From Coriobacteriia bacterium (lineage in GTDB: Bacteria > Actinomycetota > Coriobacteriia > Anaerosomatales > Kmv31), in assembly GCA_014859305.1 (NCBI GenBank), contig JACUUM010000013.1:1-44593 (forward strand): DNA of 44,593 bases, given 5' to 3'. Within the stretch, counting starts at the first letter, position 1. Every line of letters begins with the position of its first letter. Position numbers and translations under genes: made by a program. The notes beneath the pieces were generated by a model, which worked only from the letters and a program-made list of their open reading frames with translations, was not told where the DNA came from and made no database searches. Of the stretch, positions 1,077 to 26,157 are shown piece after piece.

Positions 1077-3302
1077 TCAGTTCATCATCACCTCGTCGAT
1101 CCCGCTCGCCCCCGACTCCGAGACGGCCCCCCTGCCGCCGAACACGACGATGCGGTCGATCTCCATCCGGTGCTCGGCGAGGTAGGCGTCCGTCGGCGCC
1201 GCGACCTGGCCGTCAGGCGCGAGCAGCAAGGGATCCCCTCCACGAGCGGCCCTCACCCCCGCCACTATCCCGATGACCGGGTCGGCCGTGGTGACAAGGT
1301 ACGCCGACCGGCCTGCGCCGCCCCTGCGGCCCCCGGCCGTCCGGCCGCCCTCCGTGAGGCCCTCAGCCAGCTTCACCGCCAGATGATACACGTCCTCGCC
1401 CCGCCGTTCGTCGGCTTCGCGGCCGCTCGTGCCGCCCACCACCGCGTTCAGCCGCTCCGAGGCGTCCCTGTCCAGACCCGCGAGGATCACGGTCGCGGGC
1501 TTCACGTCCGCGAGATGGAACAACGTCATGCCGTCCAGGCCCTCAGGGCGCGCGATGAGCACGGGGTAGCCGCGCGAGTAGGCCAGCGCCGCCAGCGCCC
1601 CGGAGGACACGAGCGTCCTGTCGTCGGTGAGCACGACGCCCTCGGGCTCGCCCGCGCGGCGCGCGAGGTAGGCGGCGCGCGCCGCCAGGTCGTAGCGGTC
1701 GCGGCCCGAGACGCGAACCGCCCCTCCGCCGGAGGCGCGCTCCGCGGCGTCCAACGTCGCCGCGCTCACGGCATCCACGCCTCCCACCACGTACAGCCTC
1801 TGCGGCTTCAGGCGGTCCAGCTGCTCGCGCACGGCGCCGCCGAGCGCGCCGGCAGGCGTGAGCAGCAAAGGGGCGTCCAGCGCGCCGGCGAGCCCGGCGG
1901 CGACCAGCGCTCCCGCGACGTCCCTCTCGCCGGCCAGAACGGCCAGACGCGCCCCCTCGACACGGCGCACCTCCTCGGCCGACGCGGACGACCGGTCGGC
2001 GGCCTGGGCCGAGTAGATCGGGAATCCCGAGACGTAGAACCTGGTGGAGAGCAGTCCCAGCGCGAAGCGGACCCGCTCACCCGCGACGGCGGCCCTCCCG
2101 CCGTCCGAAAGCTTGAACGTCACCGAACGAGCGTGCCCCGACTCCGCGCGGTCGACCACCATGCCGATGACGTGCGCGTCCGGCGGCACGGCCTCATCGG
2201 CCTCCCGAAGCTTCGCCGCCAAGGCGCGTCCGTCCAGCCTCACGCGTCTATCCGTCGGCCACGGCGAGTACTTCGCCCCGGCGACGGCCTCGTAGGGGTC
2301 CTCCACCGCGCGGAAGACGGGATCCGCGGGCGACTCCGGCCAGACGTCGCGGATGTCGGCCGTATGGCCTCCGGACTGCGAGTAGAAGTATGCCTTCACG
2401 ACCTCGTCACCGGCTTTCAGGACGAGCCGCTCGGTGGCGTCCACGGCTCGGGTGGTGCGCTCGGCCTCGTTCAGCTCGATCTTGCCGCCCGACGCGCGCG
2501 AACGCCCGCCGTAGACCTGGCTGTAGACGCTGCAGGCCAGGACGTTGCCCGCGGTCACATCGGCGTAGGCGTACGAACGCGCCGCCACCGCCTGCGCCTT
2601 GAGCGCCTCCATCTCGAAGCTCGAGGGACTCTCCCGAGGGACCACGGCGTAGAGGTACTCCTCCATGTCCAGCACGTTGACGGCCTGCAATCCGGCTCCG
2701 GCCGGCATGACGCGCATCTCGCCGCGGTAGCGGACGTCCCGCCAGCCGAACGGTCCGGTGACTCCCGCCACCTGGATCAGGGCTCCGCGCCGGGGCACGA
2801 CGCCGACCTCGTCTCCGGACGACGGCTCGCCGCCGTCGAGCCGGGCCTCCACTCCACCCCCCCGAAGGGCGAACGCCACGGCTTCTCCTTCCGGCACCGC
2901 TGTCTCGCGACCGCCGGCGACGAGGGTCAGCCCCCCGCCGACGCCACGCATCGTCCATGAAGGGCGGCCCTCGTACGGCCTGCCCGGGCGGTACGCGTCG
3001 TCGATGTTGACCCGCGCGTCCGTCCTCGGCATGCGCTCGAGCCGCGTGCCGTTGTAGTAGTGAGCGAGGATGCGGTCGTGACGGAAGCCCTTCAGGGCGA
3101 AGCCCTGCGCGCCGTACTGACTCATCCCGATCCCGTGGCCGAACCCGCTGCCCGTGAAGGTGAACGTGGGCACCTGCGGCGACTCGGCGGCCACCGACGC
3201 CGTCGCCGGCGCGCCCACGGCCGGCGCGGCCGGGTTCAGGGGCAGCGCCAGCGCGGCGACGGCGGCGGCGGTGATCGCCTTGCGGATAGCGGGGCTGAGC
3301 AC
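1077..3302 (-). CDS. Secreted SpoIID-domain protein with degenerate CWB2 repeats
   Basis: A 742-residue exported protein. Residues 1-35 form a signal peptide (basic start, Ala/Leu-rich core). Residues about 45-400 are a SpoIID domain with GHGIGMSQYGAQGFALKG near 55 and ESPSSF..EALKAQAVAARSYA, whose Glu224 matches the conserved acidic residue of SpoIID, a lytic transglycosylase acting on denuded glycan strands. About residues 425-742 are three CWB2 repeats, the first badly eroded, ending in DEVMMN. The GTG at 3302 was chosen because it opens the signal peptide behind GGAGG and begins after the preceding gene's stop; a longer reading would run through that stop region. It is a tandem, more diverged paralogue of the next gene. 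Likely wall-anchored peptidoglycan remodelling; the enzymatic activity is inferred. Confidence 0.85.
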   Translation of the reverse strand: MLSPAIRKAITAAAVAALALPLNPAAPAVGAPATASVAAESPQVPTFTFTGSGFGHGIGMSQYGAQGFALKGFRHDRILAHYYNGTRLERMPRTDARVNIDDAYRPGRPYEGRPSWTMRGVGGGLTLVAGGRETAVPEGEAVAFALRGGGVEARLDGGEPSSGDEVGVVPRRGALIQVAGVTGPFGWRDVRYRGEMRVMPAGAGLQAVNVLDMEEYLYAVVPRESPSSFEMEALKAQAVAARSYAYADVTAGNVLACSVYSQVYGGRSRASGGKIELNEAERTTRAVDATERLVLKAGDEVVKAYFYSQSGGHTADIRDVWPESPADPVFRAVEDPYEAVAGAKYSPWPTDRRVRLDGRALAAKLREADEAVPPDAHVIGMVVDRAESGHARSVTFKLSDGGRAAVAGERVRFALGLLSTRFYVSGFPIYSAQAADRSSASAEEVRRVEGARLAVLAGERDVAGALVAAGLAGALDAPLLLTPAGALGGAVREQLDRLKPQRLYVVGGVDAVSAATLDAAERASGGGAVRVSGRDRYDLAARAAYLARRAGEPEGVVLTDDRTLVSSGALAALAYSRGYPVLIARPEGLDGMTLFHLADVKPATVILAGLDRDASERLNAVVGGTSGREADERRGEDVYHLAVKLAEGLTEGGRTAGGRRGGAGRSAYLVTTADPVIGIVAGVRAARGGDPLLLAPDGQVAAPTDAYLAEHRMEIDRIVVFGGRGAVSESGASGIDEVMMN

Positions 3303-3334
3303 GTGGCGGGACCTCCGTCGGAGCGCCCTCGCTC

Positions 3335-5620
3335 CTAGTTCATCATCGTCGCGTCGAGAGCGGCGAAGGCGGAGTCGGTCACGGCCGCGCGGCTGCCGAA
3401 GATCCACAGCCTCTGGATGTAGGACCGGTTCTCCCTCAGGTACGCGGCCGTGGGCGGCGCGACGCGATCACGGCGGGTGAGCAGCATGGGCCTGCGCATC
3501 TTCCCGGCGAGCACGCCGCCGGCGAGCGCGTCGGGGAAGTCGTAGCCCGTCGCCAGATAGACCTCGTCGCGCGACCAGACGCCTTCCGGCGCCGCTCCCC
3601 CGCCCAGGTAGCGTGCGATCGCGACCGACGTCGCGTACCTGTCGGAGCCCGCCAGGCGCTTCACGGAGCCTCCCGAAGCCGTGGCCGCCGCGGAAGCGGC
3701 CCCGGCCGACACGACCGCGTCGCTGCCGGCGACCAGCGTCTGCTCCGGTTTCAGCGCTCTCAGCGCCCGAGCCGAGGCACCGTGCAGCGCGTCACGCCTG
3801 GTCAGCAGGATCGGGTAGGCCTGGGCGTAGGCGAGCACGGATGCCGCGGCGGCATCGGGCCAAGACGTCCCGCTCACCAGCAGCGCCTTGGCGGGCGGCT
3901 CGCCGCCGTTGGCCGTGGCGACCTCGGAGATCTCGGCGGCGGCCTTCTCGGCGGTCGTGTACCGGTCCTGCCCCGCGATCCGCATCACTGTCGCGGCCGG
4001 GAGCTTGGCTCGCACGGCGCTCTCGACACCGGCGGTCAGCGCGGGGCCGCCCCCCATCAGGTAGACGGTGGACGGCGCGAGGCGCGCGAGCTCCCGCGCC
4101 GTCTCGGAGGGCAGCGAGCCGCGGCGCGAGAGCAGCAGCGAGCCTCCGGAGGCGCCGGCGAGGCCCGAGCCCGTCAGTGCGTCCGCGAAGTCCTCGCCGC
4201 TTGCGATCACCACGGTCGGAGCGGTCGTCGGGAAGGCGCGCTTGGAGATCTCGACCGCAGTGGAGTAGCGGTCACTCCCGTAGATGCGCGAGATCGGGAA
4301 GCCCGAGAAGTAGAACATGGGCGAGAGCAGGCCGAACGTGCCTCGCACCGTCCAGCCGGAGACCTTCACGGAGGAGCCCTCGCTGAAGCGGAACGTGACG
4401 TAGCGGGGGTAGCCGGAGGCGGCACGCTCGGTGATCACCCCGGTGACGTGGGCGGAGCCGCCAGGGACGCCGGAGATGCCCGCGGCGCGCAGCTTGTCCG
4501 CCAGCTGCAGTCCGGAGAGGCGCTTCTCCTTGTCGGAGGGCCATGGGCAGTACGGGGCGCCCGCGAGCGACTCGTAGGGGTCCGAGACGCTCCTGTGGTA
4601 CGGCCGCGGAGTCGCGCTCACCCACACGTCCTCGATGTTGGCGGTCCGCCCGCCGGACTGCGAGAAGAAGTATGTGGTGACTACGGTCTTGTGGCTGGTC
4701 GAGGTGTAGTACACCACCCTGCCCGCCGTCGCGTTCACCGCCGAGTTCGTACTCGACGCCTCATGCATGTAGACGTTCGAGTCCGAGCCGTCCCTGAGAC
4801 GGGAATGGGCGCCGTAGACCTGGCTGGAGGTGGTGCAGTACAACTCCCCGTCGAGCGTCCCGTTGCGGTCCTGGTCGGGGTTGGTCGCCCAGGCGTACGA
4901 GCGCGCTGCGACCGCCTGCGCCTTGAGCGCCTCGGCGCGCCAGGACGAAGGGCTCTCGCGGGGCACCACACCGTACAGGTAGCTCTCCATCGGGACGTGG
5001 TTGACCGCCTTCAGCGTGTTGCCCGAAGCGGTGAGCCTGATGCTCCCCCTGTAGCGCATGTAGGGATACCCGTTCGGGTGGTCCTTGTGCAGCGGCGGAC
5101 CGGATGCGTCCTTGACCACGAGGAGCTTCGGGCTGCCGCTCGCCGCGCTGACGCTCGCCGAGGACCCGAGCGTCCTGCCGGCCACCACGATCTTGCCGTC
5201 CTTGGCGGTGAACGTCTGGTAGGCGTTGTTGCCCAGCGTGAGGGACGTCGAGCCGCTCGACACCCTGAGCTCGGACTTGTATCCCTTGATGGTCCAAGAG
5301 GACCGGTACCTCTTGGCCCTGTCGATGTTCACCCGGACGGTGGGGTTCTTGTCCTTCGCCCCGAAGAGCGACTCCAGCGTGCGCAGGGTCGTCTTCTGGT
5401 AGTAGTGGGTGAGGATCCTGTCGTACGTGTAGCCCTTCAGCGCGAAGCCCTGGGCGCCGTACTGGCTCATGCCGATGCCGTGACCCCATCCGGTGCCGCT
5501 GATGGTGAAGTCGCGTACGGCTTGAGGGGCGGGCGCGGCGCCTGCGGGCCCGGCCGCCGGGACGGCGACGACGGATGCGGAGAGCGCGGCCGCGAGGAAG
5601 GCTCTCAGGCTACGATGCAT
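3335..5620 (-). CDS. Secreted SpoIID-domain protein with three CWB2 repeats
   Basis: A 761-residue exported protein. Residues 1-32 are a signal peptide rich in Ala. The SpoIID domain follows, with GWGHGIGMSQYGAQGFALKG near 45 and MESYLYGVVPRESPSSW around 211-227 (Glu222 is the candidate catalytic acid), then EALKAQAVAARSYA. About residues 445-761 hold three well-kept CWB2 repeats with the signatures GSDRYSTA, GQDRYTTA and GSDRYATS, and GEDFADAL/GYDFPDAL blocks; the protein ends LDATMMN. CWB2 modules are known in C. difficile to bind an anionic wall polymer. The ATG at 5620 sits behind CTGGAGG. It is 32 bases upstream of its diverged paralogue and 29 downstream of a glycosyltransferase, so it belongs with the polymer locus. 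Likely a wall-anchored glycan-cleaving protein. Confidence 0.9.
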   Translation of the reverse strand: MHRSLRAFLAAALSASVVAVPAAGPAGAAPAPQAVRDFTISGTGWGHGIGMSQYGAQGFALKGYTYDRILTHYYQKTTLRTLESLFGAKDKNPTVRVNIDRAKRYRSSWTIKGYKSELRVSSGSTSLTLGNNAYQTFTAKDGKIVVAGRTLGSSASVSAASGSPKLLVVKDASGPPLHKDHPNGYPYMRYRGSIRLTASGNTLKAVNHVPMESYLYGVVPRESPSSWRAEALKAQAVAARSYAWATNPDQDRNGTLDGELYCTTSSQVYGAHSRLRDGSDSNVYMHEASSTNSAVNATAGRVVYYTSTSHKTVVTTYFFSQSGGRTANIEDVWVSATPRPYHRSVSDPYESLAGAPYCPWPSDKEKRLSGLQLADKLRAAGISGVPGGSAHVTGVITERAASGYPRYVTFRFSEGSSVKVSGWTVRGTFGLLSPMFYFSGFPISRIYGSDRYSTAVEISKRAFPTTAPTVVIASGEDFADALTGSGLAGASGGSLLLSRRGSLPSETARELARLAPSTVYLMGGGPALTAGVESAVRAKLPAATVMRIAGQDRYTTAEKAAAEISEVATANGGEPPAKALLVSGTSWPDAAAASVLAYAQAYPILLTRRDALHGASARALRALKPEQTLVAGSDAVVSAGAASAAATASGGSVKRLAGSDRYATSVAIARYLGGGAAPEGVWSRDEVYLATGYDFPDALAGGVLAGKMRRPMLLTRRDRVAPPTAAYLRENRSYIQRLWIFGSRAAVTDSAFAALDATMMN

Positions 5621-5649
5621 GCTATGTCTCGCCTCCAGGTGATGCGCGG

Positions 5650-6834
5650 TTACCAGTATACACCGGCCCTCGGGGGCGCGGCCGGCGTCGCCTGCTGCGA
5701 GAGCAGCCCCTCGTAGACCAGCAGCAGCCGCCGTGCCACCTCTTGCCAGTTCAGGCCCGCTTCCACGATCGCTCGCCCGCGGCGCCCCATCTCGGCGCGC
5801 GTGCCGGGCTCGTCCCGCAGTCGCACGAGGGCGGCGTCGAGCGCCGCCCCGTCGCCCGGCTGCACCGCGAGACCCACTCCCTCTCGTACGGCGTAGTCGC
5901 CGGCCCACGTCCCGGACGAGACTATGCAGGGCAGCCCACAGGCCATGGCTTCCATCATCTTCACCGGGAACAGCGTCCGGACGTTGCCGATGCCGGCCTC
6001 GTAGACCGCGTACACGACGTCGCAGCGCGCGTAGTAGGCGGGCAGGTCCGCGTAGGCGAACCGGCCGCGCACCTCGATGCGCCGCAGCTCCGCGGCGATG
6101 ACCGCGACCTCCTCGGCGGCCGTCCCCCCGCCGGCGAGCAGCGCGGCCATGTCCTCGTGCGCGTCGACGACCTCCATCAGCGTGCGCAGCCCGCCGACGT
6201 AGCGCTTCTGGCCGAAGTAGCCGACGGTCAGCGGACGGTCGGGCCGGCGCTCCTCTGCCGGCCGGAACATCTCGGCATCCGGCGCGTTCTCTATCGGCGT
6301 GAGCCGGTCGCCGACGCCGAAGCGGCCGTAGTAGTCCAGCGTGCCGGGGTTGGCGACGAGCACGGCGTCGGCGGCGGGGAGCGCCCGGCGCTCGACCACG
6401 CGCACCCCCGCCCTGGCCGCGACCCCCGGAAGCCCCCGCTGCGGCACCATGTTGCTCTCGCGGTAGAGCTCGTGCATATCGAGCACCAGCTTCCGGCGCT
6501 CGCTCCCCCGCGCGGCGCGGAGCCCGGCCTGCGCGGTGTCGAGGTCGTGGCAGTGCACCGCATCCGGCGCGAGCCTGGCGGCCTCCTCGGCGGCCACGCG
6601 CCAGAACCCGCGGTACGCCCCGAGGTTGGCGAGCCCGCCGCCGTGCCGGGCCTCCGGACCGACCCGCAGGATCCGCACTCCGCCGCGCTCCTCCTCCGGT
6701 GGCCCCGACAACGCCCTGTCCCACGCGATCACGGTCACCTCGAGGCCCGCCGCGACGAGCGCCGCCGCTTCCTTCTCCACGCGGGGGTCGGAGTGCAGCG
6801 CGTTGCTCAGCAGCATCGCCACCCGGCCGTTCAC
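5650..6834 (-). CDS. Glycosyltransferase, GT4-like (GT-B fold)
   Basis: A 394-residue cytoplasmic glycosyltransferase. The N-terminal half starts RVAMLLSNALHSDPRVEKEA, has DAVHCHDLD and DMHELYRES blocks, and the C-terminal half has TVGYFGQKRYVGG and FPVKMMEAMACGLPCIVS, the GT4 nucleotide-sugar-binding E-x7-E-like region. The GTG at 6834 has GAGGAGGGAG six bases before it and overlaps the stop of the upstream glycosyltransferase as GTGA, so the two are translationally coupled. It is the last gene of a run glycosyltransferase - Wzy - Wzz - glycosyltransferase - glycosyltransferase. It presumably adds one sugar of the lipid-linked repeat unit; donor and acceptor cannot be told from sequence. Confidence 0.85.
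   Translation of the reverse strand: MNGRVAMLLSNALHSDPRVEKEAAALVAAGLEVTVIAWDRALSGPPEEERGGVRILRVGPEARHGGGLANLGAYRGFWRVAAEEAARLAPDAVHCHDLDTAQAGLRAARGSERRKLVLDMHELYRESNMVPQRGLPGVAARAGVRVVERRALPAADAVLVANPGTLDYYGRFGVGDRLTPIENAPDAEMFRPAEERRPDRPLTVGYFGQKRYVGGLRTLMEVVDAHEDMAALLAGGGTAAEEVAVIAAELRRIEVRGRFAYADLPAYYARCDVVYAVYEAGIGNVRTLFPVKMMEAMACGLPCIVSSGTWAGDYAVREGVGLAVQPGDGAALDAALVRLRDEPGTRAEMGRRGRAIVEAGLNWQEVARRLLLVYEGLLSQQATPAAPPRAGVYW
5655..5660 (-). promoter_or_regulatory. Candidate -10 box for the SpoIID/CWB2 pair
   Basis: On the minus strand the bases read TATACT, 35 bases before the ATG of the SpoIID/CWB2 gene, at the very end of the upstream glycosyltransferase. No convincing -35 hexamer is visible, so this is a weak call. 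Confidence 0.25.
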
Positions 6835-8069
6835 GCGCCGCTCCCTCCTCGGTCCGCCGCCGTGCCGCTGAGCTGCGACCTTGCGGCGACCTCCCGGTAG
6901 AGCCGCACGAGCAGGTGGCCGACGACCTCCTTGGAGAACCGCTCGCGTATCGACGCGGCGATGGCCGCGCCGTCGAAGGACGCCTGGTCTTCGAGGGCGA
7001 GGCGGATCCCCTCCGCCAGGGCCGTCCGGTCGCCGGGCTCCACGAGTACCCCCTGGCCGGGCCCGACGATGCCGGAGGGCCCCCCCGAGCGCGTCGCCAC
7101 CGCGGGCAGCCCGGTCGACATCGCCTCGATCAGCGCGACGCCGAATCCCTCCCGCAGGGACGGCAGCACGAACAGGTCGGCGGAGCCGAGAGCTTCTCGC
7201 AGCTCTTCTTGAGGCAGAGGCCCCGCAAGGCGGACGCGGCCGACCAGGCCCAGCGCCTGGGAGAGGCGGGCGAGCCGCTCCCGCAGCGGCCCGTCGCCGA
7301 CGATCGTCAACTCCAGGTCGCGCCCTTCGGCGACCAGCGCCGCGAGGGCGTCGAGCAGCACCGCGTGCCCCTTCTCGGGCACGAGCCTGCCCACCGCCAC
7401 CAGACGCACAGGGGATGGCGCGCCCCGATCCCTGGACACGAAGCTGAACGCCTCCCCGTCGTACGTGTCCGGGATGACGACCGTCCGCGCGGGGTCCGCG
7501 CCGATGAGGGACACCGCGTCCCCGGCCAGGGCGTCGCTTACGCATACGATCGCGGACGCGTATGCGGCCACCTCCTCCAGCTCGCGCTTCCAGGCGGGAC
7601 GGACCAGGTTGGTGTACAGGTCGGATCCGTGGACGGTCACTATCAGCGGGACGCCCGCGGCCGCGGCGAGCCGCCGGGCGGCCGCGGCGCTGGGGTAGAG
7701 GGCGTGGGCGTGTACGAATGCAGGAGCATGGTCGGCAAGCGCACGAGCGAACGGTCCTCTCGCGGCGCGGGCCATCGAGGACGCGACTCCCGCGTACAGG
7801 AGCCGGCGCGGCAGGACCGGGTAGCGCGGCCGGCTCACTTCCACTCCGCCGTGCTCGCCGTCGCCACGCACGTAGGGCTTGCGCAGCGCGCCGGCGAGCA
7901 CCCGCGGGACCCACGGAACGGGCGCGATGACGCGCCAGGACACGGCACGCGCCGTCGCGTCGAGCTGCTCGGCGACGAACAGGCCCCGCAGAGGCTCCGC
8001 CGGGCTGGGGAACTGCTTGGCGAAGGCCAGGCCGCGCAGGCGGCCCTCCCCGTCCGCGTCCACTCTCAC
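6831..8069 (-). CDS. Glycosyltransferase family 4 protein
   Basis: A 412-residue GT4 enzyme. The N-terminal acceptor domain shows FVHAHALYPSA and VTVHGSDLYTNL; the C-terminal donor domain shows LVAVGRLVPEKGH, LTIVGDGPLRERL and LPSLREGFGVALIEAMSTGLPAV with the paired Glu residues of GT4 transferases. The GTG at 8069 overlaps the stop of the Wzz-like gene (GTGA); a second GTG lies 6 bases on. Its own stop overlaps the next glycosyltransferase start by 4 bases. It resembles transferases of exopolysaccharide synthesis (WcaC/EpsD type) with unknown sugar specificity. Confidence 0.88.
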   Translation of the reverse strand: MRVDADGEGRLRGLAFAKQFPSPAEPLRGLFVAEQLDATARAVSWRVIAPVPWVPRVLAGALRKPYVRGDGEHGGVEVSRPRYPVLPRRLLYAGVASSMARAARGPFARALADHAPAFVHAHALYPSAAAARRLAAAAGVPLIVTVHGSDLYTNLVRPAWKRELEEVAAYASAIVCVSDALAGDAVSLIGADPARTVVIPDTYDGEAFSFVSRDRGAPSPVRLVAVGRLVPEKGHAVLLDALAALVAEGRDLELTIVGDGPLRERLARLSQALGLVGRVRLAGPLPQEELREALGSADLFVLPSLREGFGVALIEAMSTGLPAVATRSGGPSGIVGPGQGVLVEPGDRTALAEGIRLALEDQASFDGAAIAASIRERFSKEVVGHLLVRLYREVAARSQLSGTAADRGGSGA

Positions 8070-8842
8070 CGCGCGGCCGCGGCCGCGCCCCTCCTGCCCA
8101 TGAGCTCTCGCACGGCGGCCAGCGCCACCCCGAGCATGACGCCGAGGAAGCCCGCCCCCGCCAGCGCGTCGCGCAGTGTCTTCGAGGCGGGGCGGGAAGT
8201 GACCGACACGTCGCCGTCCCAGGAGTAGGCGTCCAGCACCGACTGGTACGCCGAGGTGTAGTTGAGGAGGGAGAGCCTCAGCGAGTACAGCGCCTGGGAC
8301 TTGGCGAGATCCGCCTCGGACTGCGTCCGCATCTGGTTCGCCAGGAACTCTGTGCGCTCCACCTCCTCGACCATCCGCTGGGTGAGCTCCATGAGTGCGC
8401 GGGCCTTGTCGATCTCGCCCGTGGACAGCTCCCGGCCGCGGGTCACCACGCCCCGCGCCATCGCCGCCGCCCCGCGCTCTGCCTCGGCCTCGTCGTCGGC
8501 GCGGTACGTCACGAACAGCCACGCCTGCGGGTCGCCGGTGGTGTAGGCGTTCATGTCCGAGGAGAGGTCCTCGGCCGGTATGCCCGTCTCACTCGCGACG
8601 ATGCTGCGGTACTCCTCGCCGTCGCCGGTGATCTCGGAGACGAGGTCGTCCGGCTTCACCACGCCCGGGCGCGCCGTGATCGCCGCCGCGATGGCGACCT
8701 GCGCAGTGCCGGTGTGGGTCGTTCTGGCGTCACGGGTCGCGAGGTAGGCCGCAGCGAGCGCGGCGACCGTCACCACCGCCACGAGCCACCACTGACGCCT
8801 CACCGCATCGGTCAGGACGGCGACGGGATGGCCTTCAGGCAT
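8066..8842 (-). CDS. Wzz-like polysaccharide chain-length determinant
   Basis: A 258-residue inner-membrane protein with the Wzz layout: a short cytoplasmic start, one membrane helix at about residues 18-36, a long extracytoplasmic segment with helical, charged stretches (about 120-190), and a second membrane helix near 226-247 followed by a short basic tail. Such proteins set polymer length together with Wzy and Wzx. No attached or neighbouring BY-kinase is visible, unlike many capsule systems of Gram-positive bacteria. The ATG at 8842 follows GAGGAGG and lies inside the end of the upstream Wzy-like gene. Sequence is divergent, so the call rests on topology and on its place between the polymerase and a glycosyltransferase. 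Confidence 0.7.
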   Translation of the reverse strand: MPEGHPVAVLTDAVRRQWWLVAVVTVAALAAAYLATRDARTTHTGTAQVAIAAAITARPGVVKPDDLVSEITGDGEEYRSIVASETGIPAEDLSSDMNAYTTGDPQAWLFVTYRADDEAEAERGAAAMARGVVTRGRELSTGEIDKARALMELTQRMVEEVERTEFLANQMRTQSEADLAKSQALYSLRLSLLNYTSAYQSVLDAYSWDGDVSVTSRPASKTLRDALAGAGFLGVMLGVALAAVRELMGRRGAAAAAR

Positions 8843-11577: not shown

Positions 11578-11586
11578 GCTGGCCAT

Positions 11587-11614: not shown

Positions 11615-11644
11615 GGCGCACCCGCTCCCCGACGAGAGGCCAGC

Positions 11645-12799: not shown

Positions 12800-12803
12800 G
12801 GGC

Positions 12804-15242: not shown

Positions 15243-15276
15243 GGGCACCCTTGCGGTCGGGGGCGGGCCGCGAGCC

Positions 15277-15282
15277 ATTGTA
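15277..15282 (-). promoter_or_regulatory. Candidate -10 box for the BNR_4-CWB2 gene
   Basis: The minus strand reads TACAAT, 35 bases before the ATG at 15242. The -35 at the right distance (TAGGGA) is poor, so confidence is limited. Confidence 0.35.
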
Positions 15283-15309
15283 ACATCGCTCCAGGCGCTC
15301 CCTAGCAGG

Positions 15310-15338
15310 TTCGCTGCCACTGCGGCATCGTATAGACT
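15310..15338 (+). promoter_or_regulatory. Candidate promoter of the flippase gene
   Basis: TTCGCT (15310-15315), 17 bases and TAGACT (15333-15338) lie in the 160-base divergent gap. Both boxes are imperfect. The expected start is near 15345, about 75 bases before the preferred GTG. Confidence 0.3.
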
Positions 15339-15420
15339 GCCGGGGGCGGCAGGCCCGGAAGCGTAACGGTTCGCCGTCGGGGGAGCGTGCGATCCTCCCC
15401 CCGTGTCAGGATCGGGACCC

Positions 15421-16938: not shown

Positions 16939-16999
16939 CGGCACGCGGCGGGCGGGCCGCTGGAGAGCGCTTGGGAGCGCCGGAGCGCGATCCCGGATG

Positions 17000-17008
17000 T
17001 GATACCCT
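17000..17008 (+). promoter_or_regulatory. Candidate extended -10 for ugd
   Basis: TGATACCCT reads as an extended -10 (TGn plus TACCCT), 46 bases before the TTG of ugd and inside the 115-base gap after the flippase gene. No -35 is evident. Confidence 0.3.
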
Positions 17009-17053
17009 GACCCGGCGGCGCGACCCCGGCGGCCGAGTGGACGAGGAGGAGCA

Positions 17054-18355: not shown

Positions 18356-18374
18356 CCCGGGACCGGCGCGAACC

Positions 18375-19625
18375 GTGCGGGTCCTCTACATCCACCAGTT
18401 CTTCGCCGACCGCGAGTCCTCCCTCGGGCTGATCCGCTCCTACGAGTTCTCACGCCGTCTCATCGAGGCGGGGCACGAGGTCGTCATGGTCTCCAGCTCC
18501 TCGCGCCTCCCGGCGAGCTTCTCGGAGCGGCTGTTCGCGCGCGGCGACGTCGACGGGATCGACGTGCGCTCGGTGCGCGTCGACTACTCCAACTACATGG
18601 GGTACGGGAGGCGCATCCTGTCGTTCCTGAAGTTCATGTTCGGAGCCACCTGGCTCGCGGCCAGCGCCCCGCGCCCCGACGTCGTCATCGCCACCTCCAC
18701 GCCCCTTACCGTCGGCTTCCCGGGTTGGGCGGCCGCCGCGCTGCGCCGCGCGCCCTTCGTGTTCGAGGTCCGCGACCTGTGGCCGGAGGCAGCCTTCCAG
18801 ATGGGCGCCCTGCGCCGCCGCGGGCTCCTCGGCCGGCTCGCGAAGGCGCTGGAGCGCTTCCTGTACCGGCGTTCGGCCGCGGTGATCGCGCTCTCGCCGG
18901 GAATGGCCGCCGGAGTGGTGGAGGAGGGCGTCCCCTCCGGACGCGTGCACATGATCCCGAACTGCTGCGACCTCGACCTCTTCTCGCCCGGTGGGAAGGA
19001 CCCGGAGCTGGTCGCGCGGTTCGGCCTCGAGGGCCGGTTCGTCGCGGGCTACGCCGGAGCCGTCGGCCCCAGCAACGCGCTGGAAGCGCAGGTGCCCGAG
19101 GCCGCCCGCGTCCTGCGGGACCGGGGACGTGACGACGTCGTCTTCCTCATCGTCGGCGAGGGCAGGAGCCTCTCGGCCCTTCGCGCCGAGGTGCAGCGCC
19201 TCGGTGTGGGCGACGGTGTCGTGCTCGCCGGACCGATGCCCAAGCGCGACATCCCGCGCGTCACCCGCACCGCCGACGCCCTCATGACGCTCTTCGCCGA
19301 CGTGCCCATCCTGGCCACCAACTCGCCGAACAAGTTCTTCGACGCGCTCGCCTCGGGCAGACCGGTCATCGTGAACTCGGGAGGGTGGACCAGGGACATC
19401 GTGACCGAGGAGGAAGCCGGGCTGTACGTGCCCCCGGGCGACGGGACGGCTCTGGCCGACGCGGTCGAGCGGCTGGCGGACGACGCCGAGCTCACCGAGC
19501 GCCTCGGCCGCAACGCGCGGCGGGTCGCCGAGCAGCGCTACGGCCGCGATCTGCAGGCGGCGCTCTTCATCGGAGTGCTGGAGGAGGCAGCCGGCTCGAG
19601 GGGCGGCGGAGACCGGCGCGCCTGA
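18375..19625 (+). CDS. WbuB-like glycosyltransferase (GT4)
   Basis: A 416-residue GT4 enzyme of the WbuB/WcaI subgroup: MRVLYIHQFFADRESSLGLI with the following RSYEFSRRL, VVIATSTPLTVGFPGW, FEVRDLWPEAAFQMGAL, ALSPGMAAGV, MIPNCCDLDLF and TNSPNKFFDALASGRPVIVN. Members transfer amino sugars such as N-acetylfucosamine to polyprenyl-linked GlcNAc in some O-antigens; the sugar here is not known. A GTG 19 bases after the ugd stop is the start, with a GGGACCGG-like ribosome site. It ends 6 bases from the convergent LCP gene. Confidence 0.88.
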   Translation: MRVLYIHQFFADRESSLGLIRSYEFSRRLIEAGHEVVMVSSSSRLPASFSERLFARGDVDGIDVRSVRVDYSNYMGYGRRILSFLKFMFGATWLAASAPRPDVVIATSTPLTVGFPGWAAAALRRAPFVFEVRDLWPEAAFQMGALRRRGLLGRLAKALERFLYRRSAAVIALSPGMAAGVVEEGVPSGRVHMIPNCCDLDLFSPGGKDPELVARFGLEGRFVAGYAGAVGPSNALEAQVPEAARVLRDRGRDDVVFLIVGEGRSLSALRAEVQRLGVGDGVVLAGPMPKRDIPRVTRTADALMTLFADVPILATNSPNKFFDALASGRPVIVNSGGWTRDIVTEEEAGLYVPPGDGTALADAVERLADDAELTERLGRNARRVAEQRYGRDLQAALFIGVLEEAAGSRGGGDRRA

Positions 19626-19631
19626 GGCGGG

Positions 19632-21086
19632 CTACTGCACGCGGCGGAAGGGGGTCGCGGTGCCGGCGGCGCCCGAAACGTCGCCCGCGCCCGCCCGCCA
19701 GTCCTTCCCGACGACCACGAGCACGTCGGTGGAGAAGCTGTACATGCCTCGGCTCTCGACGACCCTTGCCACTCCCAGAGCTCTCGCCACGCTGCGCGCC
19801 TTGTCTTCCCGGTCCTTGAAGATCACCAGCGTGGTCTCGTACACGAACCGGTTCGCGTTGCCGACGTCGCCGACGGTGTATCCCTTGCCGCGCAGGCGGT
19901 CGGCGGCATCGGCCGCACAGCCCGAGATGCCCGCGCCGTTGCGCACCGTGACCGTCACCGACGCGGGGTCGACCTGCTCGGCCGGCGTCTCGTCCGCCCC
20001 CTCTATGTCCGCTCCGCTCCGCAGCGCCTCGGAGAGCTGCTCCTTGACGTACTCGTCGGGGATGACGTAGGAGACGCCGCCGATCGTCTGCGAGGGCCCG
20101 ACGAGCGTCGCCGCCTGCACGTTCTTCTCACCCAGCCCGCGTAGCGCCTGCACGAGCGCGAGGATCTCGGTGACGCTCATGTCGCTCGTGGTGTGCCTGG
20201 CCATCTCCTTGACCACGCCCGGCAGCTTGAAGACGTTGCCGAGCTTGAGCGACTGCTTCGCCAGCGCCTTGAAGAACGTCTGCTGATGCCTCATCCGCGT
20301 GAAGTCGCCGTCGGGGAACTTGCGGCTGCGCACGTACGTGAGGGCGTGCTCGCCGTCGAGCAGCTGGTCGCCGGCCGGGATGTGGTACGCCTGCCGCGAG
20401 CCGTGGCTGGCCGCCTTCTTGTCGTTGATCTCGACGTCCACGTCCACCCGGACGCCGCCCATGGCGTCGACCACGCCCTGGAAGCCCCTGAAGTCCACCA
20501 TCATGTAGTGGTTGATGGGCACGCCGAGGTAGTCCTCGAGGGTGTCGACCATCAGGGCCGGACCCCCGTGGAACGTCGCCGCGTTGATCTTCTCCATCCC
20601 GTAGCCCGGTATCTCCACGCGGCTGTCGCGTGGGATGGAGACCATCCGCACTTCCTTGCTCTTCGCGTCGATGCGGGCGACGATGATCGTGTCGGCACGG
20701 GCCCTCGTCTCGCCCGGGCGCCGGTCGTCCCCCAGCAACAGCACCGTGAAGGGCTCCGCCTTCTGGCGCGTCAGCGCCTCCACGGTCTTGTCGTGCTCGG
20801 GCGAGTCGATGAGATCGTTCTGCACGCCGGTTATGAACGCGAGCGCCCAGGCTCCCGCGGCGGCGGCGAGCCCGAGCATGAGAGCGGCGACCGTGAGCAG
20901 CACGCGCTTGACCAGGTGCGCGCGCCGCTGCGCGTGGATCCGCATACGGGGGGCGGCCTCCACGGCGACACGACGGCCGCGGTGGTACTCCGTCCAGGCC
21001 TTCTCGCCCGGGACGGCGGACTGCCGCCCGTGCGCCGCCCGCGGGCGGCGCCTCGTGTGCGATCCTTGTCGGCGATCTCGTCTCAT
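19632..21086 (-). CDS. LCP family (LytR-CpsA-Psr) polymer-peptidoglycan ligase with LytR_C domain
   Basis: A 484-residue membrane-anchored protein. A long basic cytoplasmic N-terminus (about 60 residues) precedes one membrane helix near 61-86. The LCP domain has LLLGDDRRPGETRARADTII (the first catalytic Asp/Arg block), VSIPRDSRVEIPG, KINAATFHGG, GVPINHYMMVDF and LLDGEHALTYVRSRKF followed by DFTRMRHQQ. A LytR_C domain follows (VTVRNGAGISGCA, near 385-470). LCP enzymes move undecaprenyl-pyrophosphate-linked polymers to peptidoglycan. The ATG at 21086 follows GAGGAG. It sits between the polymer genes and the wbp set, which makes this polymer its likely substrate. Confidence 0.93.
   Translation of the reverse strand: MRRDRRQGSHTRRRPRAAHGRQSAVPGEKAWTEYHRGRRVAVEAAPRMRIHAQRRAHLVKRVLLTVAALMLGLAAAAGAWALAFITGVQNDLIDSPEHDKTVEALTRQKAEPFTVLLLGDDRRPGETRARADTIIVARIDAKSKEVRMVSIPRDSRVEIPGYGMEKINAATFHGGPALMVDTLEDYLGVPINHYMMVDFRGFQGVVDAMGGVRVDVDVEINDKKAASHGSRQAYHIPAGDQLLDGEHALTYVRSRKFPDGDFTRMRHQQTFFKALAKQSLKLGNVFKLPGVVKEMARHTTSDMSVTEILALVQALRGLGEKNVQAATLVGPSQTIGGVSYVIPDEYVKEQLSEALRSGADIEGADETPAEQVDPASVTVTVRNGAGISGCAADAADRLRGKGYTVGDVGNANRFVYETTLVIFKDREDKARSVARALGVARVVESRGMYSFSTDVLVVVGKDWRAGAGDVSGAAGTATPFRRVQ
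21032..21051. repeat. Perfect 20-base palindrome in the LCP gene start
   Basis: GCGCCGCCCG is followed directly by its exact reverse complement. It lies 35 bases after the ATG, within codons for an Arg/Ala-rich stretch, and could fold in the mRNA or bind a dimeric protein. Confidence 0.8.
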
Positions 21087-21212
21087 CGCACTCCTCGTAC
21101 CGGACCGTGAAGACGCCGGTCTCCTGGCGTTTACCCCGAACCGCCGACGAGGCGGCGTCCTCCCTCTTCCCCCGCTCGGGCCGGCGGATCGGCCGGGACG
21201 TCCGACCGGAGG

Positions 21213-21221
21213 ATCCTACCA
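21213..21221 (-). promoter_or_regulatory. Candidate extended -10 of the LCP gene
   Basis: On the minus strand TGGTAGGAT reads as an extended -10 in the 200-base gap between wbpE and the LCP gene, about 120 bases before the ATG. The -35 position (TGGCCC) is weak. Confidence 0.3.
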
Positions 21222-21286
21222 GCCCCTCGCGGCCGGGCCATCACCGGAGCGCCTCGCGCGCAGGTCGGCGGACAGCCCGGCCTGCT

Positions 21287-22387
21287 TCATACGAGCGCGT
21301 CCCGGAGGACACGCGCGACCTCTTCCTGCTGCTTCGGCGTGATCCCCGGGAAACAGGGGACCGCGAAACACCCGTCGTCGGCGGACTCGGCCACCGGCAG
21401 GCTCCCGGACTCGTACCCGAGGGCCGCGTAGACCTCCTGCAGGTGCAGCGAGAGCGGATAGTAGATCGCCGTGCCGATGTCCGCGGCCTTCAGCGCGGCC
21501 ATGGCCCGCTCGCGTTCCGGCGTGCTCACCATGTAGAGGTGGTACACGGGCGTGCCGCGGTCACTGGAGACGGGAAGCCGCAGCGGGAGCCCGGAGAGCA
21601 TCTCGTCATAGACCGCGGCGGCCGCTCGCCGCGCCTCGTTCCAGGAGTCGAGGTGCGGGAGCTTCACGAGCAGGATGGCTGCCTGCAGCGCATCGAGCCG
21701 GCTGTTCAAGCCCAGTTCGTCGTGGAAGTACTTCTTGGACGTCCCGTGGTTGGCGATCCTGCGCGCCCTGGCGGCGAGCGCGTCGTCATCGGTCGTGATG
21801 ATGCCCCCGTCGCCGGCGGCGCCGAGGTTCTTGCTCGGGAAGAAGCTGAACGCCGCGGCGTCGGAGAGCGCGCCGGCCTTGCGGCCCTTGTACGTCGCGC
21901 CGATCGCCTGACACGCGTCCTCGATCACCTTGAGGCCCCGCGCCCCGGCGATCTCGAGCAAGGGGTCCATGTCCACGCACTGACCGAAGATGTGGACGGG
22001 CATGACCGCCCTCGTACGCTGCGTCACGGCGGCTTCGACCTTCGACACGTCCAGGTTGTACGTGTCGGGCTCGATGTCCACGAAGACAGGCGTCGCGCCG
22101 ACGCGGCTGATCGCCTCGGCGGTGGCGAAGAACGTGAACGGCGACGTCACCACCTCGTCGCCCGGGCCGATGCCCATGGCCTCGAGGATCAGGAACAGGG
22201 CGTCCGTCCCGCTCGCGCACGCCACGGCGTGCTTGGTGCCGACGTAGCCGGCGACCGCGTCCTCCAGCGCCCGCACCCTCGGCCCGCCGATGAACGCCGC
22301 GCTCTCCATGACCTCGGCGATCGCGGCGTCGATCTCGGGCTTCAACTCCCGGTACTGTGCCTTCAGGTCGAGAAGGGGGATCCCCAT
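21287..22387 (-). CDS. wbpE: DegT/DnrJ/EryC1 sugar aminotransferase, WbpE-like
   Basis: A 366-residue PLP enzyme of the DegT/DnrJ/EryC1/StrS family. The start IPLLDLKAQYRELKPEIDAA, CASGTDALFL, SPFTFFATAEAI, HIFGQCVDMDPL, VIEDACQAIGA and SFFPSKNLGAAGDGG (PLP lysine Lys186) match WbpE of Pseudomonas, which aminates UDP-2-acetamido-2-deoxy-3-oxo-glucuronate at C3 using glutamate. That assignment is supported by the wbpA, wbpB and wbpD neighbours; from sequence alone another 3- or 4-aminotransferase would be possible. The ATG at 22387 follows AAAGGTGA. It is separated by 142 bases from the acetyltransferase gene, in which I see no further gene. Confidence 0.88.
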   Translation of the reverse strand: MGIPLLDLKAQYRELKPEIDAAIAEVMESAAFIGGPRVRALEDAVAGYVGTKHAVACASGTDALFLILEAMGIGPGDEVVTSPFTFFATAEAISRVGATPVFVDIEPDTYNLDVSKVEAAVTQRTRAVMPVHIFGQCVDMDPLLEIAGARGLKVIEDACQAIGATYKGRKAGALSDAAAFSFFPSKNLGAAGDGGIITTDDDALAARARRIANHGTSKKYFHDELGLNSRLDALQAAILLVKLPHLDSWNEARRAAAAVYDEMLSGLPLRLPVSSDRGTPVYHLYMVSTPERERAMAALKAADIGTAIYYPLSLHLQEVYAALGYESGSLPVAESADDGCFAVPCFPGITPKQQEEVARVLRDALV

Positions 22388-22529
22388 CGCTCACCTTTCC
22401 GTTGCTCGCTCACTGGAGCGGTGCGTGCGACCAGCGGGTCGCGGGGCGCGCGCAGCATGGTCTCACGTACCGAGCGCGGCCGGTCCCGCCGTCACGGACC
22501 CGTCACGGGGCCCACGGCTTCTCCACGCG

Positions 22530-23261
22530 TCACCGGTCCTCCAGCAACTCCTCCTCGGGCACGTCGCGCACCTTCCTCGCCGGCGCCCCCATGACGAGCG
22601 CGCGCGAGGGCACGTCCCGTGTGACGACCGCCCCCGTGGCCACGAACGCCTCCTCGCCGATCTCCACGCCCGGCAGGATGTGCGCGCCGCCGCCGATGCG
22701 CGCCCCGCGACGGATGGTGGGCCCGCGCACATGCTTGAAGCGCTCCTCGGTGCGGCCCATGTAGTTGTCGTTGGTCGTCACGACCATCGGAGCGATGAAG
22801 ACGTCGTCCTCGATCCTCATGTACGCGGTGACATACGCGCCGGTCTGGATCCTGGTGCGCGAGCCGATGGTGGTGTCGTTCTCGACGGTCACGTTGCGGC
22901 CGAGCACGACGTCGTCCCCTACACGGCACCGTTCTCGCACGCCCGCGCCGTCGCCCAGGACGCAGCGCTCGCCGATCTCCGTGCCGGCCATGAGCACCGT
23001 GTGGCTGCCCACCGACGTGCCGGCTCCGACGACCAGCGGCCCCAGGTCGCCGGCGGCCGCCGCCGTGGAGCGCGCGGAGAGCTTCGGCCGTCGGCCGAGC
23101 ACGGCGAAGTCCGCCACGGTCACCCCGTCGCCCAGCACGGTCCCGGCGTGGATCGTCACGTGGTGGCCCAGGACGACACCCTCCCCGATCCGTGCGCCGC
23201 GCTCGACCATCACGCCGATCCCGTGCGAGAAGCCCCCGCCGGACCCGGTCTCCTCGGCCAC
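22530..23261 (-). CDS. wbpD: Left-handed beta-helix acetyltransferase, WbpD-like
   Basis: A 243-residue hexapeptide-repeat enzyme. Repeats such as IGEGVVLGHHVTIHAGTVLG, VGDDVVLGRNVTVEND and IGGGAHILPGVEIGEEAFVA build the left-handed beta-helix; a VVTTNDNYMGR loop and the C-terminal APARKVRDVPEEE are typical of sugar N-acetyltransferases. With the neighbouring genes it fits WbpD, which acetylates the 3-amino group of UDP-2-acetamido-3-amino-glucuronate. It is somewhat longer than the roughly 190 residues usual for WbpD because of extra N-terminal repeats. The GTG at 23261 starts one base after the wbpB stop and uses a GGAGG within the end of that gene. Confidence 0.82.
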   Translation of the reverse strand: MAEETGSGGGFSHGIGVMVERGARIGEGVVLGHHVTIHAGTVLGDGVTVADFAVLGRRPKLSARSTAAAAGDLGPLVVGAGTSVGSHTVLMAGTEIGERCVLGDGAGVRERCRVGDDVVLGRNVTVENDTTIGSRTRIQTGAYVTAYMRIEDDVFIAPMVVTTNDNYMGRTEERFKHVRGPTIRRGARIGGGAHILPGVEIGEEAFVATGAVVTRDVPSRALVMGAPARKVRDVPEEELLEDR

Positions 23262-23262
23262 C

Positions 23263-24324
23263 TCAGACCTCCACGGTCGTGCTCATGGGTGCGCCGCCCG
23301 CGGCCATCGACTCGTCGACCGCCTCGAGCACGCGTACCACGCGCAGGCCGTCCCGCCCGTCGGAACGCGGAGTCTCGCCGTCGGTCACGCGGTCGAGGAA
23401 GTGCTGGACCTCCTTGGCCAACGGCTCGCTCATCTCGATGAAGGGCACGCGGATCTCGCCGAACCGCAGCTGGAGGTCCGCGCCGTAGGGCAGCGCCTCC
23501 GGCGGCTCGACGCCCTTGTCGTAGATCCAGACCTTCTCGGTGGCCTCCATGTCGTCGAAGACCAGCATCTTCTTGGATCCGACGATGGTGAACTTGCGGA
23601 CCTTGTGCGGATCCAGCCAGCTCACGTGGATGTTGGCCATCTTGCCGGACGGGAAGTGCAGGTTCGCGAAGACGGTGTCCTGCACGCCGGGGGTGACGTA
23701 CGCCGCGCCGTTGGCCGACACGTAGTCGGGGCTCTCGCCCAGGAGGTACAGCACGATCGAGACGTCGTGCGGCGCCAGGGACCAGAACGCGTTCTCCTCG
23801 GTACGGACCTTCCCGAGGTTGAGGCGCTGCCCGTAGACGTAGAGCACCTCCCCCAGATCGCCCGCGGCGATGCGGTCGCGGATCCACTCGATCGCGGAGT
23901 GGTACTCCATGAGGTGGCCGACCATCAGCGTCAGGCGGCGGTCGTCGGCGAGCCTGACGAGCTCCTCGGCGTCCCGGCTCGTCAGCGTCAGCGGCTTCTC
24001 GACGAAGACGTGCTTGCCCGCCTCGAGCGCGCGCTTCGCGAGGCCGAAGTGCGACGGTGCCGAGGAGGCCACCACGACCGCGTCGACGTCGAACCGCGAG
24101 AGCATCTCGCCGAGGTCGCAGGAGGTGTCGAGGTGGGGGTACGCGGCCTTCAGGCGCTCGAGGTTGCCGTCGTTCACGTCGCACGCGCACACGAGGTCGG
24201 CGTCCGGCAGACGGTCGAGGTTGCGCACCAGGTTGGGTCCCCAGTAGCCGTACCCCACGACGCCGACGCGCACCGGCTTGGACGGCCGGGCGGCGCCCGT
24301 CCCGGCGCTGCCGGCGGGCGTCAT
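23263..24324 (-). CDS. wbpB: Gfo/Idh/MocA sugar 3-dehydrogenase, WbpB-like
   Basis: A 353-residue NAD(P)-dependent oxidoreductase. The Rossmann motif VGVVGYGYWGPNLVRNL lies near residue 20, followed by AVVVASSAPSHFGLAKRALE, GKHVFVEKPLTL (the EKP catalytic-domain signature) and LMVGHLMEYHSAI. In the WbpABDE pathway this enzyme oxidises C3 of UDP-GlcNAc-uronate. The ATG at 24324 overlaps the wbpA stop as ATGA, and the stop is followed after one base by wbpD, so the three are tightly coupled. In the Pseudomonas pathway the WbpB and WbpE reactions are linked through 2-oxoglutarate recycling. Confidence 0.87.
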   Translation of the reverse strand: MTPAGSAGTGAARPSKPVRVGVVGYGYWGPNLVRNLDRLPDADLVCACDVNDGNLERLKAAYPHLDTSCDLGEMLSRFDVDAVVVASSAPSHFGLAKRALEAGKHVFVEKPLTLTSRDAEELVRLADDRRLTLMVGHLMEYHSAIEWIRDRIAAGDLGEVLYVYGQRLNLGKVRTEENAFWSLAPHDVSIVLYLLGESPDYVSANGAAYVTPGVQDTVFANLHFPSGKMANIHVSWLDPHKVRKFTIVGSKKMLVFDDMEATEKVWIYDKGVEPPEALPYGADLQLRFGEIRVPFIEMSEPLAKEVQHFLDRVTDGETPRSDGRDGLRVVRVLEAVDESMAAGGAPMSTTVEV

Positions 24325-25616
24325 AGCCGCACCACCTTGGGGTCCGCGTGCGAGGGCATCGTGTTGCGCGTGTCCAGGACGAGGGGTGCGTGCCGCGCGA
24401 CGAGGTCGTAGTCGACGCCGCGATGGTTGGTGATGACGAGCACGGCGTCGGCCGCGGCGAGCTCCTCCGCGGTCAGGTCGACGCCCGGCACGCCCACGCC
24501 CTCCACGACGAACTCCGGCACGTGGGGGTCGTGGTAGACGACATCGGCCTCCTTGGCGAGCAGCAGCTGCGCGACCTTGATGGCGGGGGACTCGCGCATG
24601 TCGTCGATGTCGGCCTTGTACGCCACGCCCAGCACGAGCACCCGGGAGCCCGCGAGCGGCTTGCGGTGGGTGTTGAGCGCCTCCATCAGCCGCCGCACGA
24701 CGTAGTACGGCATGTCCTCGTTGATCTTGCCCGCCAGCTCGATGAACTCGGTGTGGAAGTCGAACTCGCGCGCCTTCCAGGACAGGTAGAACGGGTCTAT
24801 CGGGATGCAGTGGCCGCCGAGACCGGGGCCCGGGTAGAACGGCATGAACCCGAACGGCTTGGTCTTGGCCGCGTCTATGACCTCCCAGATGTCGATGCCC
24901 ATTCGCTCGGAGAGGCGCAGCAGCTCGTTCACCAGCGCGATGTTCACGCAGCGGAAGATGTTCTCGAGCAGCTTGGTCATCTCGGCGGCCCGGGTCGACG
25001 AGACCGGGACCACGGTGTCGATGAAGCGCTCGTAGAACACGGCCGCGAGCCTGGTGCACTCCGCGGTGACGCCCCCGACGATCTTGGGGGTGTTCCTGGT
25101 CTTGTAGACCGGGTTCCCCGGGTCCACGCGCTCCGGCGAGAACGCCAGGTGGATGTCGCTCCCGACCTCCAGGCCTCCCGACTCGAGGATCGGCTGCACG
25201 ACCTCCTCGGTGGTCCCCGGGTACGTCGTGGACTCGAGCGTCACGAGCACGCCCGGGCGCAGGTACCCGACGATCGAGCGGGCGGCCGCCTCCATGAACG
25301 AGGTGTCCGGCTCCTTCATCTCGTCGAGCGGTGTGGGCACGCAGATCGCGACGCAGTCGCACTCGGCCACCCTGGAGAAGTCGGTCGTCGCCTCCACGAG
25401 GCCCGCCGCCACGCTCTCGGCGAGGTCCTCGGCGGGCACGTCGGCGATGTGGGAGCGTCCCGCCGCCACCTCGGCCGCCCTCTCGGCGTTCACGTCGATG
25501 CCTATGACCTCGTGGCCCGAGCGCGCCATCTCCACCACGAGCGGCAGGCCCACGTACCCGAGGCCGACGACGGCGAAGACGGCGGAGCCGTCACGGATGC
25601 GCTGTTCGAGCGACAC
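24321..25616 (-). CDS. wbpA: UDP-N-acetylglucosamine 6-dehydrogenase, WbpA-like
   Basis: A 431-residue nucleotide-sugar dehydrogenase of the UDP-GlcNAc/ManNAc branch. It has VVGLGYVGLPLVVEMA (Rossmann), CVPTPLDEMKEPDTSF, ESTTYPGTTEEV, AFSPERVDPGN, NIFRCVNIALVNEL and GPGLGGHCIPIDPFYLSWKA with the catalytic Cys270, which separates this branch from Ugd (GYGGSCFPKD). The C-terminal half carries VLVLGVAYKADIDDMRESPA. It would oxidise C6 of UDP-GlcNAc to the uronate, the first step towards UDP-GlcNAc(3NAc)A. The GTG at 25616 follows AAAGGA. It heads the wbpABDE operon, 83 bases after fabZ. Confidence 0.9.
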   Translation of the reverse strand: MSLEQRIRDGSAVFAVVGLGYVGLPLVVEMARSGHEVIGIDVNAERAAEVAAGRSHIADVPAEDLAESVAAGLVEATTDFSRVAECDCVAICVPTPLDEMKEPDTSFMEAAARSIVGYLRPGVLVTLESTTYPGTTEEVVQPILESGGLEVGSDIHLAFSPERVDPGNPVYKTRNTPKIVGGVTAECTRLAAVFYERFIDTVVPVSSTRAAEMTKLLENIFRCVNIALVNELLRLSERMGIDIWEVIDAAKTKPFGFMPFYPGPGLGGHCIPIDPFYLSWKAREFDFHTEFIELAGKINEDMPYYVVRRLMEALNTHRKPLAGSRVLVLGVAYKADIDDMRESPAIKVAQLLLAKEADVVYHDPHVPEFVVEGVGVPGVDLTAEELAAADAVLVITNHRGVDYDLVARHAPLVLDTRNTMPSHADPKVVRL

Positions 25617-26122: not shown

Positions 26123-26157
26123 CGCTGCTCCCTCCTCGGCGCACCCGCCCCGACGTG

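Follow-up and report, generated by a model that had tools for sequence, protein, structure and literature searches.

A candidate wall-polymer locus and its CWB2 surface proteins in the Anaerosomatales

Genes of the locus

The window analysed here is a whole contig of 44,593 nucleotides (JACUUM010000013.1, contig C13 in our numbering) from a Coriobacteriia bacterium of the Anaerosomatales, an order of subsurface actinobacteria that has received little study (assembly GCA_014859305.1), whose genome of 2.13 Mb is 98% complete. It contains a cluster of polymer-synthesis genes interleaved with genes for secreted proteins carrying CWB2 repeats. Genes were called, the predicted proteins were searched against Pfam and NCBIfam families, and some were compared with PDB structures. 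The family searches bore out the gene content proposed in a preliminary description of the stretch, namely five GT4 glycosyltransferases, a flippase, a Wzy_C protein, Ugd, an LCP (LytR-CpsA-Psr) protein and four Wbp homologs, together with three CWB2 proteins recognized by PF04122. The cluster runs past position 25616 into fabZ, murA and atpCDGA. Its features are as follows.

237-1043, minus strand: purine nucleoside phosphorylase (PNP), presumably, as read from its sequence; block edge opposite MurA, homologs in the same slot
1077-3407, minus strand: secreted SpoIID/LytB-domain protein with degenerate CWB2 repeats (PF08486, E 7e-22; PF04122, E 6e-14)
3335-5620, minus strand: secreted SpoIID/LytB-domain protein with three CWB2 repeats (PF08486, E 3e-24; PF04122, E 2e-45; PDB matches to SpoIID and to Cwp6, Cwp8 and SlpA)
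5650-6831, minus strand: GT4 glycosyltransferase A (Pfam/NCBIfam)
6831-8105, minus strand: GT4 glycosyltransferase B (Pfam/NCBIfam)
8066-8842, minus strand: candidate Wzz-like chain-length regulator (two terminal membrane segments and position; 28-33% homologs in the same slot)
8835-10220, minus strand: Wzy/O-antigen-ligase-like polymerase, Wzy_C (PF04932, E 4e-22)
10213-11580, minus strand: GT4 glycosyltransferase C (Pfam/NCBIfam)
11645-12799, plus strand: GT4 glycosyltransferase D (Pfam/NCBIfam)
12804-15242, minus strand: predicted uronate polysaccharide lyase, secreted, with a PL25-like (BNR_4) propeller and three CWB2 repeats (PF15892 and PF04122)
14742-14957, minus strand: codon span of predicted lyase residues H117, H137, Y173 and R188 (His123, His143, Tyr188 and Arg204 of PLSV_3936)
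15403-16938, plus strand: Wzx/MOP-family flippase (PF01943, E 4e-19)
17054-18355, plus strand: Ugd/TuaD-like UDP-glucose 6-dehydrogenase (best model TuaD, 455 bits)
18375-19625, plus strand: GT4 glycosyltransferase E (Pfam/NCBIfam)
19632-21086, minus strand: LCP ligase with LytR_C domain (PF03816, E 8.5e-46)
21287-22387, minus strand: WbpE-like aminotransferase (PDB WbpE 3nu7, E 4e-94)
22530-23261, minus strand: WbpD/WlbB-like N-acetyltransferase (matches to QdtC and an LPS-type acetyltransferase)
23263-24318, minus strand: WbpB-like Gfo/Idh/MocA 3-dehydrogenase (family searches)
24321-25616, minus strand: WbpA/WecC-like UDP-HexNAc 6-dehydrogenase of the WecC/Cap5O type (family searches and PDB comparison)
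25700-26134, minus strand: FabZ, constant neighbour in the block (PF07977)
26158-27408, minus strand: MurA, constant block edge (PF00275)

The products of 1077-3407 and 3335-5620 combine SpoIID with CWB2, and that of 12804-15242 combines BNR_4 with CWB2. Membership of the former two in the SpoIID/LytB family is given by PF08486 and TIGR02669 scores above cut-off; the frame at 1077-3407 probably starts near 3302. Three CWB2 repeats had been ascribed to each protein, which holds fully for 3335-5620 and 12804-15242, while those of 1077-3407 are degenerate, with two scored by Pfam (one of them partial) and a third visible only with a profile built here. PDB matches relate the window repeats to C. 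difficile Cwp6, Cwp8 and SlpA, and the repeats carry hydrophobic-Leu-Leu/Ile motifs akin to the Ile-Leu-Leu motif on which CWB2 binding to the C. difficile polymer PSII depends (PMC4973711). A sporulation role of SpoIID was rejected, since cultivated Anaerosomatales, which are Gram-positive and asaccharolytic, do not form spores (PMC9686372).

Three CWB2 proteins in 25.5 kb correspond to ~14 times the chance density (0.21 expected), two of the three being adjacent paralogs. The host genome holds 53 CWB2 repeats in 19 open reading frames (ORFs), so that the bacterium uses CWB2 as a surface module in general and not only at the locus.

Among the polymer genes, those for a 6-dehydrogenase, a 3-dehydrogenase, a 3-aminotransferase and an N-acetyltransferase are adjacent and form a WbpABDE set. 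The WbpE assignment is strong, and WbpB is only moderately similar to characterised or solved enzymes. TagU and TuaD are the best models for the LCP protein and Ugd, respectively, each with a score below the curated cut-off. The Wzz-like call is based on the two membrane segments and on position, while a Pfam search with this protein gave no match.

Conservation of the block in the order

Neighbourhoods from more than 40 genomes were compared, with homologs and CWB2 repeats mapped onto them (G and L numbers below are our genome and locus numbers). A recurrent block was observed that begins with the atp operon, MurA and FabZ and ends with PNP. Between FabZ and PNP stand, in this order, WbpA in most cases, a varying set of sugar genes, LCP, a varying set of glycosyltransferases and, again in most cases, SpoIID. 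The blocks of G012, G013, G042 and G033 match the window nearly gene for gene. A short form in G057 and G060 comprises MurA, FabZ, WbpA, LCP, a homolog of a G028 protein which we take to be DUF354-like, a BNR_4-CWB2 protein, SpoIID-CWB2 and PNP. Constant across blocks are a UDP-sugar 6-dehydrogenase and LCP, usually with SpoIID, and full-length homologs of 3335-5620 recur in the block across the order.

Two minor features of the arrangement were also recorded. FabZ and MurA (25700-27408) are near-invariant neighbours of the polymer genes and adjoin the atp operon. The presumed DUF354-like protein, possibly a polymer glycosyltransferase, lies between an epimerase and LCP, or beside LCP, in the short-form blocks of G028, G002, G006 and G060 (e.g. 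L033).

The proposed linkage of wall-polymer, LCP and CWB2 genes is kept across the order: each of the 28 CWB2-rich genomes with an assembled block has in it an LCP gene, WbpA and/or Ugd, and one or more CWB2 proteins. The preliminary description would have been refuted by a lack of conserved linkage in related genomes, and it withstands this test. These 28 blocks contain 51 CWB2 proteins, against 5.7 expected from genome-wide density with spans read from block maps and three repeats assumed per protein. Given this excess (51 against ~6), chance clustering at the block was rejected, although the genomes are not independent samples. The idea that CWB2 genes retain their neighbours in general was likewise rejected for the host and the complete genome G012, between which the window block alone among CWB2 neighbourhoods is extensively shared and the others share no more than five ORF pairs.

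A PF03816 search of seven genomes returned a single LCP protein in G012, G023, G057, G059 and G060, and one strong and one weak LCP in the host (G000) and G036. The strong LCP was located in this block in all seven. In C. difficile, CWB2 proteins are held non-covalently by PSII, which LCP proteins anchor (PMC4973711, PMC10100865). Provided that CWB2 binds an LCP-fixed polymer here too, the locus would be the best candidate source of that polymer. In this order, the search for the CWB2 ligand can for the most part be confined to a single locus and its main LCP ligase. CWB2 is a widespread wall-anchor module, and to our knowledge its ligand has been demonstrated in C. difficile only.

The linkage in 28/28 blocks, together with a block LCP that is the main or sole one, strengthens the C. 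difficile-like reading of the locus. The parallel itself, already drawn in the preliminary description, is reasonable (PMC4973711); the C. difficile PSII locus lies beside the slpA/cwp cluster, so that in both cases polymer-synthesis and CWB2 surface-protein genes are neighbours. There are also differences. PSII contains mannose and its locus includes mannose-activation genes, whereas the window locus is built on uronic-acid and Wzx/Wzy genes, with no such mannose-activation genes found among the block proteins; for this reason it may work like the PSII locus but is not that locus. In addition, no SlpA or SecA2 was seen at the window locus, and CWB2 binding here is presumed.

From gene content, synteny, co-occurrence and conserved active-site residues we infer, with a probability of roughly 0.55, that the locus directs the synthesis of a secondary wall polymer containing uronic acid and encodes its own CWB2-anchored enzymes, with CWB2 docking on the LCP-attached polymer. 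WbpA(BDE) and Ugd would supply UDP-uronic acids, from which the five GT4 enzymes would assemble a repeat. The repeat would be flipped by Wzx and polymerised by Wzy with its Wzz-like partner (a Wzx/Wzy-type route), and the genome's single strong LCP ligase, whose substrate this polymer would be, would fix the product to peptidoglycan. Wall-resident remodelling proteins of the SpoIID/LytB type and the PL25-like lyase would then hold on through CWB2, most likely docking on the LCP-attached polymer by analogy with PSII in C. difficile. Our literature search found nothing on an Anaerosomatales wall polymer, and a Gordonia strain named CWB2 crowded out other results on this module in Actinobacteria.

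Several observations weigh against this wall-polymer interpretation. About 16 other CWB2 proteins of the host are unlinked to the locus, and the LCP protein could attach another polymer. The genomes compared are related, which leaves the chance estimate only a guide, and synteny continues through the atp operon, so that slow rearrangement may explain part of the block conservation. CWB2-free genomes retain the polymer genes and LCP, from which it follows that the polymer has other uses. Furthermore, other lineages show SpoIID linked to wbp genes in the absence of CWB2.

Uronic acids and the predicted PL25-like lyase

The product of WbpABDE may be UDP-GlcNAc3NAcA or, with the 2-epimerase WbpI, the ManNAc3NAcA form, so that both the gluco and manno sugars are candidates. 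No WbpI was found in the window locus, and the only homolog (50%) is on host contig C63. A WbpI-type homolog is present in ~24 genomes and usually adjoins WbpE.

It had been suggested that a di-N-acetylated uronic acid is part of the ligand. In its strict form, this would mean that the WbpABDE sugar itself is the residue recognised by CWB2. WbpBDE is indeed present in 20 of the 28 CWB2-bearing blocks, the WbpI-type homologs usually adjoin WbpE as described, and a diacetamidodideoxyuronic-acid-containing chain is reportedly the secondary wall polymer of Bacillus (Geobacillus) stearothermophilus, as described by Schaffer in 1999 (cited in PMC5817068). The likeness to that organism is one of polymer description, and its wall-polymer anchoring is not known to proceed via CWB2. 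WbpB orthologs with 66-77% identity occur in most sampled genomes of the order, with 26/32 CWB2-rich against 10/19 CWB2-poor near-complete genomes having one (Fisher p = 0.055). WbpBDE is missing or incomplete in the remaining 8/28 blocks. In G004 and G037 it is sited away from the block. WbpB is absent genome-wide from six of the 32 CWB2-rich near-complete genomes (G009, G023, G045, G057, G059, G060), among which G045 also lacks WbpA genome-wide and has a block devoid of WbpD and WbpE. Conversely, 7 of 12 CWB2-free genomes keep WbpB. WbpBDE was thus rejected as the general maker of a conserved ligand and the suggestion was not sustained; that CWB2 recognises the di-N-acetylated residue itself is improbable. 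Because WbpBDE is patchy across CWB2-rich and CWB2-free genomes, this sugar is optional in the polymer, and CWB2 would instead probably recognise a feature common to polymer variants. Natural gene losses in this way separate the candidate ligand sugars, as WbpBDE can be set aside as a general answer and uronic acid cannot.

For the BNR_4 half of the 12804-15242 product, a match to 5uam, a PL25 ulvan lyase, was obtained (E 1.4e-15). The active-site residues reported for PLSV_3936 are His123, His143, Tyr188, Arg204 and Tyr246 (PMC6836179, PMC8377490). In our alignment, with a numbering offset of 24 taken from it, these five and Arg282 correspond to H117, H137, Y173, R188, Y228 and R257, and all six are conserved without exception in the homologs compared (14/14), of which 12 are block orthologs and two are paralogs. 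An AlphaFold2 model of the PL25-like domain (pLDDT 80, pTM 0.86) gave 5uam as the top Foldseek match (E 8.5e-20, TM 0.68). The PL25 structure 5uas was also matched, followed by enzymes of GH145/PL42 and PL24, families that act on chains containing glucuronate. The protein shares with PLSV_3936 and the PL24/PL42 glucuronate lyases the beta-propeller fold, with all five active-site residues and Arg282, and differs in its fusion to CWB2 and in having its gene within a wall-polymer locus, its substrate being a prediction. Our literature search found nothing on a CWB2-bearing ulvan-type lyase.

In a search of 20 genomes, all 19 BNR_4 domains, from 13 genomes, fell in CWB2-carrying ORFs, and none was found in the five CWB2-free genomes searched. 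The simplest reading of sequence and model is that of a lyase anchored in the wall and directed at the uronate polymer of the locus itself, which it would cut at a 4-linked uronic acid by beta-elimination. Such an enzyme, if active as predicted, offers a direct chemical test of polymer content.

The lyase may also be viewed differently, as an enzyme that feeds on outside glucuronate polymers, with the locus being an ordinary capsule or exopolysaccharide locus and the nearness of CWB2 incidental. Known PL25, PL24 and PL42 enzymes degrade algal or plant glucuronate polymers (PMC8377490), and Wzx/Wzy/Wzz-type genes are also found in capsule loci. Yet the block LCP is the main or sole one in the genome, many genomes have the lyase at a corresponding position in the locus, and descriptions of the cultivated family call it asaccharolytic (PMC9686372). 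We regard this explanation as very improbable.

SpoIID anchors and parallels elsewhere

The SpoIID protein of the block does not always carry CWB2. In G001, G032, G035 and G054, genomes with 0-7 CWB2 repeats, it ends in two to seven repeats of ~130 residues matching CE2_N (PF17996), without CWB2; those of G035 were matched by a home-made profile only. SpoIID proteins in which tandem CE2_N-like repeats replace CWB2 lie at:

L087, 12058-16464
L146, 11119-13665
L086, 2723-5350

In 26 other SpoIID ORFs, CWB2 is present and CE2_N-like repeats are absent. The CWB2-free genomes G036 (L135), G053 (L082) and G061 (L081) have in the block a secreted protein with a signal-like sequence followed by three CE2_N-like repeats. 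CE2_N-like proteins also adjoin the separate WbpBDE genes of the CWB2-rich genomes G004 and G037, so that the two modules are not strictly exclusive genome-wide. We tentatively propose, as a possibility short of a probable one, that the SpoIID anchor is interchangeable at one slot (CWB2 or a CE2_N-like jelly-roll), that CE2_N-like repeats are an unrecognised class of wall-polymer anchor, and that the PL25-like lyase trims its own polymer. The swap hints at a possible second anchoring module.

The same replacement bears on whether CWB2 binds this polymer at all. The conserved partner of the locus could be the SpoIID/LytB protein, opening or remodelling peptidoglycan at the site of LCP attachment, with the C-terminal module a mere anchor that may bind something else. 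Besides the CE2_N-like repeats, this is consistent with the CWB2-free SpoIID gene that adjoins WbpD-WbpB-WbpA-WbpI homologs in several Thermoleophilia and relatives (L155, L157, L162, L172, L197), and with B. subtilis, where the LCP gene lytR and the lytABC genes are divergently arranged (PMC2632651). Against it, the PL25-like CWB2 protein of the same locus has no SpoIID domain, and C. difficile provides an established case of CWB2 binding to a polymer that LCP attaches (PMC4973711, PMC10100865). We consider this the alternative to be taken most seriously, although an unlikely one, and CWB2 binding to the polymer of the locus the better inference by analogy.

An equally close parallel as C. 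difficile is the B. subtilis region of tuaA-H, lytC-lytB-lytA, lytR/tagU and mnaA. It groups the LCP protein LytR/TagU, the SpoIID-domain protein LytB, the amidase LytC, TuaD, the flippase TuaB, the GT4 enzyme TuaC and the 2-epimerase MnaA (PMC8753576, PMC2632651), and CwlB (LytC) bears CWB2 (PMC5817068). The window, from a different phylum, is without a LytC-type amidase and has in addition the WbpABDE branch, Wzy and the PL25-like lyase. The locus thus belongs to a known kind, in a variant that extends across the order and has the PL25-like lyase and the apparent anchor swap as additions.

Related arrangements were noted outside the order. WbpD-WbpB-(WbpA)-(WbpI) genes stand beside SpoIID without CWB2 in Thermoleophilia and relatives at L158 and L161 as well as at the five loci named above. 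At L159, in Nostocoides sp. Soil756 (Micrococcales), genes resembling WbpE, WbpB, an epimerase and a UDP-sugar dehydrogenase, with low identities of 27-46%, adjoin two CWB2 proteins, one of which carries SpoIID.

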